The position numbers and the translations under genes were made by a program. The notes beneath the pieces were generated by a model, which saw only the letters and a list, made by a program, of their open reading frames with translations, was not told the origin of the DNA and made no database searches. From NCBI RefSeq assembly GCF_900104795.1, contig NZ_FNTG01000001.1, forward strand, positions 2,976,001 through 3,040,000: DNA of 64,000 bases, given 5' to 3'. This stretch comes from Burkholderia sp. WP9. Its GTDB lineage: Bacteria; Pseudomonadota; Gammaproteobacteria; Burkholderiales; Burkholderiaceae. Below are positions 35,799 through 51,480 of this stretch, in pieces; within the stretch, counting starts at the first letter, position 1, and the number at the start of each line of letters is the position of its first letter.

Positions 35799-36524
35799 AT
35801 GACGATGTCCCTGAAGAAAGCGATGATTTTCGCCGCCGGCCGCGGCGAGCGCATGCGTCCGTTGACCGACACGCGTCCCAAGCCTTTGCTCGAAGTGGGC
35901 GGCAAGCCGCTGATCGTATGGCAGATCGAACGGCTCGCGCAGGCTGGCTTTCGCACCATCGTGATCAATCACGCGTGGCTCGGCGAGCAGATCGAGGCCA
36001 CGCTCGGCGACGGCTCGCGCTGGCAGGTGGCGTTGCGCTACTCGGCCGAACGCGAGGCGCTGGAAACCGCGGGCGGCATCGTGCAGGCGTTGCCGTTGCT
36101 CGAAGATAACGGCGCGAGCGAAGTGTTCGTCGCGGTCAGCGGCGACGTGTACGCCGACTTCGACTACGCCACGCTGAATGCTCGCGCGGAAAAACTCGCG
36201 GCCTTGCCCGAGCCGGGCATGCATCTCGTGATGGTGCCGAATCCAGCGTTTCATCCGGTCGGCGACTTCGGCCTGGCCGACGGCGCGCTCTCGCTCGAGG
36301 GCGAGCCGCGCTTCACGTTCGGCAACATCGGGCTATATGACACCCGCATGTTCCGCGATCTGCCGCACGGCACGCGGCGCGCGCTCACGCCGTATTATCG
36401 CGACACCATTGCACGCGGTCTGGCGAGCGGTGAGCTGTACGAGGGTCTGTGGGAGAACGTCGGCACGCCCGCGCAGTTAGGCGAGCTGGATCAGCGTTTG
36501 CGCGCGCTGGATGGGGGGCGCTAG
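35799..36524 (+). CDS. murU: N-acetylmuramate alpha-1-phosphate uridylyltransferase MurU
   Basis: A 241-residue nucleotidyltransferase that makes UDP-MurNAc from MurNAc-1-phosphate and UTP. Signature: AMIFAAGRGERMRPLTDTRPKPLLEVGGKPLI at the N terminus and SGDVYADFDY for metal binding. Start at 35799, with a second ATG two codons later (35805) equally possible. It follows amgK by 3 bases. The TAG stop overlaps the first base of an eight-copy 7-base repeat. Confidence 0.92.
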   Translation: MTMSLKKAMIFAAGRGERMRPLTDTRPKPLLEVGGKPLIVWQIERLAQAGFRTIVINHAWLGEQIEATLGDGSRWQVALRYSAEREALETAGGIVQALPLLEDNGASEVFVAVSGDVYADFDYATLNARAEKLAALPEPGMHLVMVPNPAFHPVGDFGLADGALSLEGEPRFTFGNIGLYDTRMFRDLPHGTRRALTPYYRDTIARGLASGELYEGLWENVGTPAQLGELDQRLRALDGGR

Positions 36525-36579
36525 GCGTTTGGCGTTTGGCGTTTGGCGTTCGGCGTTCGGCGTTCGGCGTTCGGCGTTC
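36524..36579. repeat. Heptanucleotide tandem repeat, 8 copies
   Basis: Three copies of GGCGTTT followed by five of GGCGTTC, 56 bases, beginning on the last base of the murU stop codon. It lies in the 123-base gap between converging murU and the ABC exporter gene, so it is in both 3' untranslated regions. Such arrays are prone to copy-number change. Confidence 0.97.
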
Positions 36580-36647
36580 GGGTCTCAACTCTCGACCTTA
36601 ACTCCGCGCCAATTGCCAGGCGGCCACGCAAAACGCGTCACCCAAGC

Positions 36648-47521: not shown

Positions 47522-48721
47522 TCACAGGCGCTCGATGATGCCCGCCGCGCCCATGCCGGTGCCGACGCACATCGTCACCATGCCGTACTTGTAGTTACGG
47601 CGGCGCAAACCATGCACCACGGTCGACGCACGAATCGCGCCCGTCGCGCCCAGCGGGTGGCCGAGTGCGATCGCGCCGCCGAGCGGGTTCATCTTCGCCG
47701 GATCGAGACCGAGGTCCTGAATCACCGCCAGCGATTGCGCGGCGAACGCTTCGTTCAGCTCGATCCAGTCGAGGTCGTCGATCTTCAGGCCGGCGGCCTT
47801 CAGCGCGGCGGGAATCGCTTCCTTCGGGCCGATGCCCATGATTTCCGGCGGCACGCCGCGCACGGCGAAGCTGACGAAACGCGCGAGCGGCGTCAGGTTG
47901 AATTCCTTCAACATTTTTTCCGACACCACGATCAGCGCGCCCGCGCCGTCCGAGGTCTGCGAGCTGTTGCCCGCCGTCACCGAACCCTTGTTCGCGAACA
48001 CCGCGCGCAGCTTGGCCAGACCTTCGAGCGAGGTTTCCGCGCGCGGACCTTCGTCGAGCGAGACTTCGCGGGTCTTCACGCGGACTTCGCCGGTTGCGAG
48101 ATCGGGGAAGCGCTCGGTGATCGTGTAGGCGGCGATTTCGTCGTTGAACTCGCCGGCCTGCTGCGCGGCGATCGCGCGGCGGTGCGATTCGACCGAGAAC
48201 GCGTCTTGCGCTTCGCGGCTGATCTTCCAGCGCTCGGCGACCTTCTCCGCTGTCAGGCCCATGCCGTATGCAATGCCGATGTCTTCATTGCGATCGAAGA
48301 TATGCGGCGACATGGACGGCTTGTTGCCCATCATCGGCACCATGCTCATCGATTCGCAGCCGCCCGCGATCATCGCGTCCGACTCGCCGACGCGGATGCG
48401 GTCCGCCGCCATCGCCAGCGCCGTGAGGCCCGACGCGCAGAAGCGGTTCACCGTCACGCCACCGACGGTATTCGGCAGGCCGGCCAGCAGCGCGCCCATG
48501 CGCGCCACGTTCAGGCCTTGTTCCGCTTCCGGAATCGCGCAGCCGATGATCGCGTCTTCGATCACCTTCGTGTCGAGGCCGGGCACTTGCGCCACGGCCG
48601 ACTTGATCGCGTGCACCAACAGTTCGTCGGGGCGCGTGTTCTTGAACATCCCGCGCGGCGCCTTGCCGATCGGCGTGCGGCTCGCGGCGACGATGTATGC
48701 GTCTTGCAGTTGCTTTGCCAT
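47522..48721 (-). CDS. fadA: Acetyl-CoA C-acyltransferase (3-ketoacyl-CoA thiolase)
   Basis: A 399-residue thiolase for the last step of beta-oxidation. The acyl-carrying cysteine is Cys95 (VNRFCASGL), the catalytic histidine is His355 (ALGHPLGATGA) and the second cysteine is Cys385 (MCVGTGMGAAG). A near-perfect AAAGGAG lies 7 bases before the ATG. It follows the FadN-type gene after 185 bases that contain three tandem hairpin units. Confidence 0.95.
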   Translation of the reverse strand: MAKQLQDAYIVAASRTPIGKAPRGMFKNTRPDELLVHAIKSAVAQVPGLDTKVIEDAIIGCAIPEAEQGLNVARMGALLAGLPNTVGGVTVNRFCASGLTALAMAADRIRVGESDAMIAGGCESMSMVPMMGNKPSMSPHIFDRNEDIGIAYGMGLTAEKVAERWKISREAQDAFSVESHRRAIAAQQAGEFNDEIAAYTITERFPDLATGEVRVKTREVSLDEGPRAETSLEGLAKLRAVFANKGSVTAGNSSQTSDGAGALIVVSEKMLKEFNLTPLARFVSFAVRGVPPEIMGIGPKEAIPAALKAAGLKIDDLDWIELNEAFAAQSLAVIQDLGLDPAKMNPLGGAIALGHPLGATGAIRASTVVHGLRRRNYKYGMVTMCVGTGMGAAGIIERL

Positions 48722-48737
48722 CTGAATCTCCTTTGTC

Positions 48738-48902
48738 GACCGGAGTTAGCGCTTCAGCGCTTACTCCGGTCCCATGCAGTCTTATCGCGGTCGACAGCAG
48801 TTAGCGCTTTAGCGCTTACTGCTGTCCCATGCAGCCTTATCGCGGTCGACCGGAGTTAGCGCTTCAGCGCTTACTCCGGTCCCATGCACGTAGTGCGGTC
48901 GC
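48738..48902. repeat. Three tandem 55-bp units, each with a covarying hairpin
   Basis: Units start at 48738, 48793 and 48848, exactly 55 bases apart. Each begins with a 34-base inverted repeat: outer stem of 9 pairs, then TTAGCGCTTCAGCGCTTA (or with TTT) as a self-complementary apex. Units 1 and 3 share the outer arm GACCGGAGT; unit 2 has GACAGCAGT, and its 3' arm carries matching changes, so two base pairs have been swapped while pairing is kept. The unit tail CCCATGCAG...TTATCGCGGTC is shared by units 1 and 2 and diverges in unit 3. The array fills the gap between the FadN-type gene and the thiolase gene. Confidence 0.97.
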
Positions 48903-48906
48903 TCGC

Positions 48907-51342
48907 TCAGTTGCGCACCGGCTTGCCAGTTTGCAGCATGCCCATGATCCGTTCCTGCGTCTTTTGCGTGCCGAGCAGATCGACGAACGCGCGACGCTCG
49001 AGTTGCAGCAGCCACTCTTCATCGACCAGACTGCCCGCTTCCACGTCACCGCCGCACACCGCTTCCGCGATACGGCTTGCGATCAGGAAATCGTGCTCGC
49101 TGATGAAACGGCCATCGCGCATGTTGACGAGCGACGCCTTGATGGTCGCGATCGCCGAGCGGCCGGCCACCGGCACTTGCGTGACCCGCAGCGGCGGACG
49201 GTAACCCGCCGCCGACAACGCGCGCGCTTCCTTCTTCGCGACGTCGAGCAGTTCGAACACGTTGAAGACGATCGTGTCGGACGGCTTCAGGTAGCCCATT
49301 GCGCGAGCGTCGAGCGCGGAGGCCGAGACCTTCGCCATCGCCGCGTTTTCGAACGACTTCTGCACGAACTTCAGCAGGTCGTTGGTCGCGCCGACTTGCG
49401 TCGCCGCTTCCGCCGCGCGCAGCGCCGCTTCCTTCAGGCCGCCGCCCGCGGGCACGAGACCCACGCCGACTTCCACCAGACCGATATAGCTTTCGATGTG
49501 CGCGACCCGCTTCGCGCTATGGAGCGCCAGTTCGCAACCGCCGCCGAGCGCGATGCCCGACACGGCCGAGATGACCGGCACGCTGGCGTACTTCACGCGC
49601 AGCATGCCTTGCTGGAATTTCTTCACGAACGGCTCGATGCCCTTCGCGCCGCCCATCATGAAGGCGGGCATCGCTTCTTCGAGGTTGGCGCCCGCGGAGA
49701 ACGGGCCGCCCGGCGTGCCGAGCTTGAGCGACGTCGGCTGCCACACCACCAGGCCCTTGTACTCCTTTTCGGCCAGTTCGATCGCCTGCGTCAGACCGTC
49801 GATCACCGACGGTCCGATCGTGTTCATCTTGCTCTTGAACGACACGATCAGCACGTCGTTCTCGCCGGCGCGATCGTCGACCCATGCGCGCACGGCGTCG
49901 GTTTCGAACAGCGTCTTGCCGTAGGTCTTCGGATCAGCCGCGGTTTCGCCGACCAGCGGCGCACGGAACACCTGCTTGTCGTACACCGACAGCGACGAGC
50001 GCGGTACGAACGTCCTGGAAGCCGGCGACCACGAACCTTCGTTCGTATGCACGCCGCCCTTCTCGGCCACCGGGCCTTCCAGCACCCACGACGGCAACGG
50101 CACGTTCGAGAGCGCCTTGCCCGCCGCGATGTCTTCCTGCACCCACTCGGCGACCTGCTTCCAGCCGGCCGTCTGCCAGCCTTCGAACGGACCTTCGTTC
50201 CAGCCGAAGCCCCAGCGGATCGCCAGATCGACGTCGCGCGCGTTGTCGGCGATCGACTCCAGATGCACGCCGATGTAGTGATACACGTCGCGGAAAATCG
50301 CCCACAGGAACTGCGCCTGCGGATGCTGCGATTCGCGCAACAGCTTCAGACGCTCCGCCGGCGGGCGCTTGAGGATGCGGCCGACCAGTTCGTCCGCCTT
50401 CGCGCCGCCGTCCACGTACTCGCCCGTCTTCGCGTCGAGCACCTTGATCGCCTTGCCTTCCTTCTTGTAGAAGCCGCCGCCGGTCTTCTGACCCAGCGCG
50501 CCCTTCTTTACGAGTTCGGCCAGCACGGCCGGCGTTTCGTAGACCGGATAGAACGGATCGTCCTTCAGCGTGTCCTGCATCGTCTTGATGACGTGCGCCA
50601 TCGTGTCCAGACCGACCACGTCGGCGGTGCGGAAGGTGGCCGACTTCGCGCGGCCCAGACGTGCGCCCGTCAGATCGTCCACTTCGTCGAAACGCAGGCC
50701 GAATTTCGCGGCTTCGGTCACGACGGCGAGAATCGAGAAAATCCCCACGCGATTGGCGATGAAGTTCGGCGTGTCTTTCGCACGCACAACGCCCTTACCG
50801 ACCACGCTGGTCAGGAACGACTCGAGTTGGTCGAGGATTTCCGGACGCGTGGTCGCGGTCGGAATCAGTTCGACCAGGTGCATGTAGCGCGGCGGATTGA
50901 AGAAGTGGACGCCGCAAAAGCGCGCCTTCAGTTCGTCCGAGAAACCTTCCGACAAGGCGGTAATCGACAGACCCGACGTGTTGGTCGCGAAAATCGCGTT
51001 CGGCGCGAGATGCGGTGCGACCTTCTTGTACAGGTCGTGCTTCCAGTCCATGCGCTCAGCAATCGCTTCGATCACGAGGTCGCATTCGGCGAGCTTCTCG
51101 ATGTCGTCGTCGTAGTTCGCGGGCTGGATGTATTGCGCGTCGTCCTTCACGCCGAACGGCGCCGGCGACAGCTTCTTCAGATTCTCGATCGCCTTCAGCG
51201 CGATCGCATTCTTCGGGCCTTCTTTTGCGGGCAGATCGAACAGCAGCACCGGCACCTTGGCGTTGATCAGGTGCGCGGCGATCTGCGCGCCCATCACGCC
51301 GGCGCCGAGCACGGCTACCTTGCGAATGATCAGATTGCTCAC
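48907..51342 (-). CDS. 3-hydroxyacyl-CoA dehydrogenase/enoyl-CoA hydratase, FadN type
   Basis: An 811-residue fused beta-oxidation enzyme. The N-terminal NAD-binding dehydrogenase domain starts VAVLGAGVMGAQIAAHL (Gly13, Gly15, Gly18) and includes ATNTSGLSI and GVHFFNPPRYMHLVELI. The C-terminal third is an enoyl-CoA hydratase domain (FSAGANLEEAMPAF, VSGIALGGGCELALHSA). This order, dehydrogenase first, is the FadN type and not E. coli FadB. A GTG start at 51342 is chosen because GGAGGA lies at the right distance upstream (GGAGGAACGAC-GTG); the upstream frame adds a 30-residue unconserved leader. It lies 138 bases after the acyl-CoA dehydrogenase gene. Confidence 0.93.
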   Translation of the reverse strand: MSNLIIRKVAVLGAGVMGAQIAAHLINAKVPVLLFDLPAKEGPKNAIALKAIENLKKLSPAPFGVKDDAQYIQPANYDDDIEKLAECDLVIEAIAERMDWKHDLYKKVAPHLAPNAIFATNTSGLSITALSEGFSDELKARFCGVHFFNPPRYMHLVELIPTATTRPEILDQLESFLTSVVGKGVVRAKDTPNFIANRVGIFSILAVVTEAAKFGLRFDEVDDLTGARLGRAKSATFRTADVVGLDTMAHVIKTMQDTLKDDPFYPVYETPAVLAELVKKGALGQKTGGGFYKKEGKAIKVLDAKTGEYVDGGAKADELVGRILKRPPAERLKLLRESQHPQAQFLWAIFRDVYHYIGVHLESIADNARDVDLAIRWGFGWNEGPFEGWQTAGWKQVAEWVQEDIAAGKALSNVPLPSWVLEGPVAEKGGVHTNEGSWSPASRTFVPRSSLSVYDKQVFRAPLVGETAADPKTYGKTLFETDAVRAWVDDRAGENDVLIVSFKSKMNTIGPSVIDGLTQAIELAEKEYKGLVVWQPTSLKLGTPGGPFSAGANLEEAMPAFMMGGAKGIEPFVKKFQQGMLRVKYASVPVISAVSGIALGGGCELALHSAKRVAHIESYIGLVEVGVGLVPAGGGLKEAALRAAEAATQVGATNDLLKFVQKSFENAAMAKVSASALDARAMGYLKPSDTIVFNVFELLDVAKKEARALSAAGYRPPLRVTQVPVAGRSAIATIKASLVNMRDGRFISEHDFLIASRIAEAVCGGDVEAGSLVDEEWLLQLERRAFVDLLGTQKTQERIMGMLQTGKPVRN

Positions 51343-51480
51343 GTCGTTCCTCCGGAGAGTTATGCGAGGTCGCGAAGCTTCGATGGACGCTTCGCGTTGT
51401 GTGTTTGAGGAGAGACGCCGCGAGTTCGACACGCGCGGCGCCTGCCTTGATGGGATTGCCTGACGCCTGAAAACAGCGAC

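Follow-up and report, generated by a model that had tools for sequence, protein, structure and literature searches.

Results

The Hairpin Array Between Two Genes on the Minus Strand

The window, by which we mean the whole 64,000-nt stretch of the Burkholderia sp. WP9 genome that was analyzed, contains three copies of a hairpin unit between a FadN-like dehydrogenase gene and a thiolase gene. The features of the locus are listed here, with the bit scores of the units taken from a covariance model (R1, described below).

47522..48721, minus strand: acetyl-CoA C-acyltransferase (thiolase), downstream of the array (NCBIfam NF006553, 769.9 bits, cut-off 567)
48728..48734, minus strand: Shine-Dalgarno sequence (SD) of the thiolase gene, AAAGGAG, abutting the array (ATG at 48721-48719)
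48735..48777, minus strand: SD-proximal unit, GCATGGG + hairpin (48738-48771) + GTCGAC (R1 73.5 bits, G000:C1:3024735-3024777)
48778..48789, minus strand: 12-nt linker CGCGATAAGACT, which recurs with one change at 48833-48844
48790..48832, minus strand: middle unit with two compensated stem pairs, hairpin 48793-48826 (R1 69.7 bits)
48845..48887, minus strand: distal unit, hairpin 48848-48881, identical to that of the proximal unit (R1 73.5 bits)
48907..51432, minus strand: two-domain, FadN-like 3-hydroxyacyl-CoA dehydrogenase/enoyl-CoA hydratase, upstream of the array (Pfam 3HCDH_N, 3HCDH, ECH_1)

A sequence-only reading of this stretch had described three units at an exact 55-base period, a 34-base hairpin in each, and a middle unit with two compensated stem changes and one altered loop base, and all of this is borne out. 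The 55-nt copies occupy 48735-48789, 48790-48844, and 48845-48899 (spacing 55 and 55), and the three hairpins are 34-nt inverted repeats with 16-nt arms that are 94% complementary. Compared with unit 1, unit 2 carries two 5′-arm changes, each accompanied by its matching 3′-arm partner, as well as a C to T change at the apex and a single altered linker base. The array has the top TRF score (266) among 12 window rows, and all six matches to the hairpin core at up to three mismatches in the 64-kb window fall on these three hairpins (both strands of each), where 0.13 would be expected. Since both flanking genes lie on the minus strand, the mRNA-sense unit is GCATGGG-hairpin-GTCGAC, which in full reads GCATGG-GACCGGAGT-A-AGCGC-(loop)-GCGCT-A-ACTCCGGTC-GAC: a stem of 9 bp, an A·A mismatch, and 5 bp, closed by a 4-nt loop. 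As RNA the array is predicted to fold stably (−95 kcal/mol, z −8.9), and the window holds no Rfam 15 match at gathering score. Relatives carry similar linkers at the thiolase locus. Identical outer units around a different middle one (an A-B-A arm pattern) are seen in the three-unit arrays L217 and L230, the latter a thiolase array that thus repeats the pattern of the window; this arrangement may limit pairing of neighboring units. Elsewhere in the window (36517-36581), the heptamer GGCGTTC is repeated in tandem in about eight copies.

Dispersal Across Genomes

We built R1 from 17 units of the source genome; 18 had been aligned, and one 44-nt unit was dropped between alignments A1 and A2. In its own genome the model gives 63 matches at E ≤ 0.01, including 29 at E ≤ 1e-7 and seven opposite-strand echoes. 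Another seven of the 63 (34.8 bits) represent one repeat with a long flank in common, which resembles an rRNA-operon spacer, and were left out. In P. domus (L184), a unit-like hairpin (PWM 55) lies inside this spacer-like repeat, at the place of the weak 34.8-bit match in the source genome, and so the weak match is perhaps not due to chance. An apparent strand bias in an exact-core search (14/14 on one strand of the source genome) was discarded because strong R1 copies lie on both strands.

Among 40 sampled genomes (E ≤ 1e-5), R1 matches occur in all 24 of the genus, the source genome included, and in 0/16 from other families. The sequence-only reading had called for a covariance-model search and had counted uniqueness to this strain against its own interpretation; the search, run across 200 genomes of the family (E ≤ 1e-7, stricter filters), excludes such uniqueness, with matches in 72 genomes and 7/25 genera, and in 19 of the 22 same-genus genomes of that sample. 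A DNA scan of GTDB genomes returned at least 120 stretches, and a PWM scan (≥28 bits) of 120 listed stretches locates 131 arrays, or 129 after two at contig ends are dropped. Among the matches listed, arrays are distributed over Paraburkholderia (71), Trinickia (27), Burkholderia (24), and Caballeronia (7). The array of the window therefore belongs to a dispersed repeat family of several Burkholderia-like genera. The matches listed also include a hairpin on a Lacticaseibacillus contig (L165:4886-4920) that has the same core, loop, and A·A mismatch, is without GCATGGG, and adjoins the A-tract of a terminator-like hairpin; it represents chance or a distant relative.

Siting at Shine-Dalgarno Sequences

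The striking feature of the family, missed by the sequence-only reading, is that its copies usually sit directly upstream of SDs; the repeat is REP-like in kind and new in address. Under a strict test, 81/129 arrays among the matches listed have directly on their 3′ side an SD and a start codon that opens an ORF of 50 codons or more, compared to 0/129 for the mirror test on the 5′ side of the same arrays and 1.3% of 4000 random positions (first 80 stretches). Among these same matches an SD motif lies within 20 nt of 84/129 arrays, and the SD-sited total reaches 96/129 after 12 nested or atypical cases were read by eye (91/102 outside Trinickia and 5/27 inside it, those 12 included). Hairpins at SD-sited arrays have one and the same orientation to the downstream gene, and the GGAG/AGGA core starts at an offset of 0–4 in 83/129 and of exactly 0 or 2 in 68/129 arrays (among the matches listed). 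By eye, a clear SD and start codon are present at 25 of 34 places in the source genome. The strict test is passed by 58/85 arrays from the first 80 stretches and 23/44 from the other 40 (again among the matches listed), a difference due largely to Trinickia.

Many Trinickia arrays are embedded in a larger repeat, GGGGGGAGCTTT-unit-AGCGAACG..GTGAGCGTGGGGG, which holds most consensus copies of L328-L347 (genome G073), is also seen in L127, L132, L164, L175, L186, L189, and L207, and on its other strand often opens with an SD-ATG from which a short frame runs into the hairpin. We considered G073, with its many identical copies, as a source of fresh insertion sites. It proved uninformative because most copies sit within the larger repeat, and it cannot be counted separately from the Trinickia loci.

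Outside Trinickia, the SD-sited share among the matches listed is 30/31 for arrays with PWM ≥ 70 (the exception being L178) and 32/37 and 29/34 in the next score classes. The least diverged copies are thus not more scattered, which favors target choice over later weeding. SD siting could nonetheless come from selection instead of target choice. Among the first 85 arrays, 93% have A as the first base of the right flank, purines make up 82% of the first 8 flank bases, and six non-SD arrays abut a terminator-like A-tract by eye; given these flanks and A-tract sites, the target resembles an oligopurine tract, and outside genes the SD is the most frequent example of such a tract. No consistent target-site duplication is apparent by eye, and candidate 3-nt duplications (GCT, AGC, and CAG in three contexts) were judged inconsistent. 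Genes at SD-sited copies appear by eye to have no function in common (LysR, nitrilase, ExbD, thiolase, MFS, and ABC), and the upstream gene is divergent at several copies (L001, L005, and L010; by eye).

Filled and Empty Thiolase Junctions

A thiolase orthologue is present in 76/77 genus genomes. Of these 76 matches, 70 junctions were fetched (six were not) and 67 parsed, which comprise 44 empty junctions (9–42 nt) and 23 filled ones (69–295 nt, that of the window included). Three remained unparsed and by eye look filled (L231) or empty (L270 and L280), and in the filled junctions L246 and L269 a unit missed by the scan is seen by eye. These are comparisons of presence and absence among species, and no movement of the repeat was seen in them. 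On a 66-row tree (one short row left out), the filled/empty state requires 17 changes, at least 11 of them forced. Presence is not clearly clustered on this tree since shuffling the labels yields almost as few changes (mean 19.4; 65–70 of 500 shuffles as low as observed), and a wholly empty clade of 19 rows includes hairpin-rich genomes (G009 and G018). The empty sites L226, L253, and L245 carry scar-like remnants of a unit; these remnants, together with the locus-specific linkers, indicate that loss or local duplication accounts for part of the polymorphism. Orthologous sites thus vary in copy number as well as in presence. The hairpin also occurs in the thiolase leader of a Caballeronia genome (L214). 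The idea that the array sets the thiolase-to-dehydrogenase ratio, offered in the sequence-only reading, finds no support, as 44 of the 67 parsed genomes lack the array at this junction.

Filled leaders are predicted to have a more accessible SD, with an unpaired probability of 0.74 in the 23 filled vs. 0.54 in the 44 empty leaders (P = 0.001); the prediction is 0.74 vs. 0.59 when only the 24 empty sites of the mixed clade are used (P = 0.057), and the wider initiation region shows no predicted difference in openness between filled and empty leaders.

Stem Covariation, Mismatch, and Loop

The stem covaries across the family. In alignment A2, 7/14 pairs have double-sided changes and 95.4% of cells are paired, and 0/500 shuffles are as high for either cells paired or covariation score (for further pair types, the observed value is reached in 167/500). 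Alignment A3, which was fitted to the model and hence leans to it, has 132 double-sided cells vs. 29.8 when shuffled. The sequence-only reading had moved from covariation to selection on the folded form; the covariation proves real and family-wide, and the step to mRNA is weakened by the wobbles, since in mRNA sense G-T is rarer than A-C. Among 219 distinct units there are 57 G-T and 116 A-C cells (P = 9e-6, nominal because the copies are related), and a scan that ignores the mismatch, the loop, and most of the stem and requires at least 9/14 Watson-Crick pairs (the neutral scan) gives 68 and 111. A single frequent variant, at pair 17-30, contributes heavily to these counts; without it the 322-unit set retains 82 A-C and 56 G-T cells. 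An A-C cell on the mRNA-sense strand is a wobble on the opposite strand. Nothing across the pool indicates that selection acts on mRNA-sense pairing.

Whereas the lower stem varies by compensated pair changes, the A·A mismatch and the loop are conserved. In a scan whose key included mismatch and loop, A·A is kept in 201/219 distinct units, and of the 219, 139 have a TAAA loop and 64 a TGAA loop; the neutral scan finds A·A in 188/212 and a TAAA or TGAA loop in 189/212, with a Watson-Crick pair at the mismatch in only 6. The first stem pair is G-C in 317/322 units. The kept A·A mismatch (T·T on the opposite strand) and loop suggest recognition by a protein.

Units in atpC leaders differ from this pool. 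The epsilon-subunit gene atpC was found in 74/74 genomes, and 44 of 70 fetched leaders (four of the 74 matches were not fetched) have a hairpin match. Here the mismatch is kept in only 25/43 distinct units, the stem is 85% Watson-Crick vs. 78% shuffled, and GT/TG wobbles (40) outnumber AC/CA (29), in pair counts that omit eight units of length other than 43 nt. The differences persist when atpC and pool are compared under the same neutral scan (mismatch P = 9e-6, wobble P = 0.006, both from related rows). These data are suggestive only: old copies would lose recognition features first and may keep the stem, and stem retention at atpC would fit a later mRNA role. At some atpC loci a second unit with other arms separates unit 1 from the SD, as judged by eye, and such nested units might originate by template switching at GCT microhomology.

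Candidate Mobilizing Enzymes

The source genome has two PF01797 matches, one IS200-like and one a single-copy RAYT-like protein that scores 55.5 bits against NF047646, under its cut-off of 80. The RAYT-like gene occurs in 183/200 family genomes, including 72/72 hairpin-positive (R1 match at E ≤ 1e-7 under stricter filters) and 111/128 hairpin-negative ones, and looks vertically kept rather than mobile. This distribution speaks neither for nor against a part of the gene in mobilizing the hairpin. It lies at L216:1342-2166 (P0001), upstream of a large ORF that by eye resembles glutamate synthase. Neither of the 3.3-kb source-genome loci L215 and L216 contains the core motif. In 36 chosen genomes, each has a PF01797 match, stronger extras occur in hairpin-rich and hairpin-poor genomes alike, and Y1 genes do not track hairpin number. 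The linkage to a REP-associated transposase raised by the sequence-only reading was thus absent from the loci and genomes examined, and among the PF01797/Y1 genes of the source genome and the family samples we found no enzyme dedicated to the hairpin family.

Discussion

A Probably Mobile Hairpin Repeat and Rival Explanations

We consider the array probably a REP-like insertion repeat that favors purine tracts of the SD type and grows in place through tandem duplication. The distribution of the family supports its mobility well, and a mobile REP-like palindrome, one of several options in the sequence-only reading, fits best; the single-strand route that follows is our inference. The element is a short palindrome of the approximate form (A/C)GCTTTGCATGGG-hairpin-GTCGAC(A), scattered through Burkholderia sensu lato, and would spread as the single-stranded antisense hairpin 5′-CTCCT..TGTC-hairpin-CCATGCA-3′. 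A HUH/Y1-type nuclease acting in trans might recognize the T·T mismatch and loop, the target would be a pyrimidine tract opposite an SD or opposite the A-tract of a terminator, and inserted copies may multiply locally by slippage. Insertion would be tolerated, since the SD stays in place at an unchanged spacing from the start codon. A role as leader structures may explain the persistence of some old copies, for example those at atpC. We regard as possible, on balance doubtful, the more specific proposal that the ribosome-binding site (CTCCT opposite the SD) is the target of a mobile hairpin that adds leaders with SD and spacing intact, old copies (atpC) being retained as leaders after losing the mismatch and loop on which movement would depend.

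Stem covariation might instead reflect template switching within the palindrome, in which one arm is copied from the other, rather than selection. Palindromes are known substrates for such arm-to-arm correction, and double-sided exceed one-sided standard cells by 132 to 20 in A3 (64 unpaired) and by 18 to 0 in A2 (11 unpaired). However, the same process would also correct the central A·A, which is kept in both scans, and we think this origin unlikely, if still deserving weight. Rather less likely is a cis-regulatory mRNA leader, in which a hairpin just ahead of the SD either binds a protein or RNA or serves to insulate the SD, with selection maintaining it gene by gene. SD-adjacent siting, fixed orientation, the higher predicted SD accessibility of filled thiolase leaders, and the prevalence, stem pairing, and GT/TG excess of the atpC hairpins all fit such a role. 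Nevertheless, the accessibility effect shrinks in the mixed clade and leaves the whole initiation region unchanged, most parsed thiolase sites are empty, the downstream genes look unrelated by eye, G-T is rarer than A-C in the wider pool, and terminator-like sites hold some copies.

Two further readings carry little probability. Post-transcriptional protection of the upstream dehydrogenase message, an option in the sequence-only reading, would suit an array that lies between two co-directional genes and has a stable RNA fold, but position follows the downstream SD rather than the upstream stop, and copies occur at SDs of unrelated genes, several of which have a divergent upstream gene by eye; this role is unsupported and very improbable. 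An orphan CRISPR array can practically be dismissed. It would account for tandem repeats with short intervals and for the presence of the core among repeats in Table 4 of PMC5968390, yet that table gives no cas genes (NI) for the repeats with the core, the “spacers” of the window are near-identical linkers rather than unique sequences, and single units stand at SDs genome-wide.

If the SD is indeed the target, the hairpin would be a mobile repeat whose insertion alters 5′ leaders and leaves the genes intact. It would then supply leader variants naturally and offer a clean way to study how a hairpin next to an SD affects translation and mRNA life. The polymorphic thiolase and atpC sites provide ready filled/empty pairs for tests.

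Relation to Known Repeat Systems

Some REPs have a mismatch in the hairpin. Like the GTAG REPs of the REP/RAYT system, as described in the accessible portions of PMC3733652 and PMC2817692, the family is a short palindrome with many dispersed extragenic copies. It differs from them in the GTAG tag, which by eye is absent here (the foot is CATGG in sense and TGTC/GGTC in antisense), in the locus examined, where no transposase gene is flanked by the hairpin repeat, in its head-to-tail arrays, and in its position at the downstream SD, whereas REPs lie near the point where the upstream ORF ends. With the CGTC-tagged REPs of PMC3733652, a class also without a dedicated transposase, the family has the 4-nt loop in common, and its antisense form TGTC-hairpin-CCA... 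may correspond to the CGTC/TGTC/CCTC tag and CCA tail of that class. The antisense foot is TGTC where the right flank starts with A (93% of 85 arrays) and GGTC within many arrays, with the tail CCATGC. Unlike those REPs, with stems of 8–9 bp and an A/T start, the stem here has 9 bp, a mismatch, and 5 bp and starts with a G-C pair; in place of mainly head-head dimers, the units stand head-to-tail, with several same-strand units in 71/131 arrays and only a single instance of arrays on opposite strands no more than 200 nt apart (among the matches listed), and they are mostly sited at SDs. The main text of PMC3733652, in its available portion, is without the word Burkholderia.

In the accessible open-licence literature, we found no description of the family apart from Table 4 of PMC5968390, which, in the part available, reports orphan CRISPR repeats without cas genes in Paraburkholderia. 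Five of these repeats, two with one base changed, show the hairpin core (P. terrae BS001, BS007, and BS110, P. hospita, and P. oxyphila), and the “spacers” between them may therefore not record phage encounters. In siting, the family resembles the TAACTGA direct repeats of Beggiatoaceae, which, according to the sections of PMC4679880 available, are tandem, lie just upstream of many start codons, and mostly share one orientation. In contrast to those 7-nt direct repeats, which mostly replace the SD, the family described here places a hairpin before an SD that stays intact.
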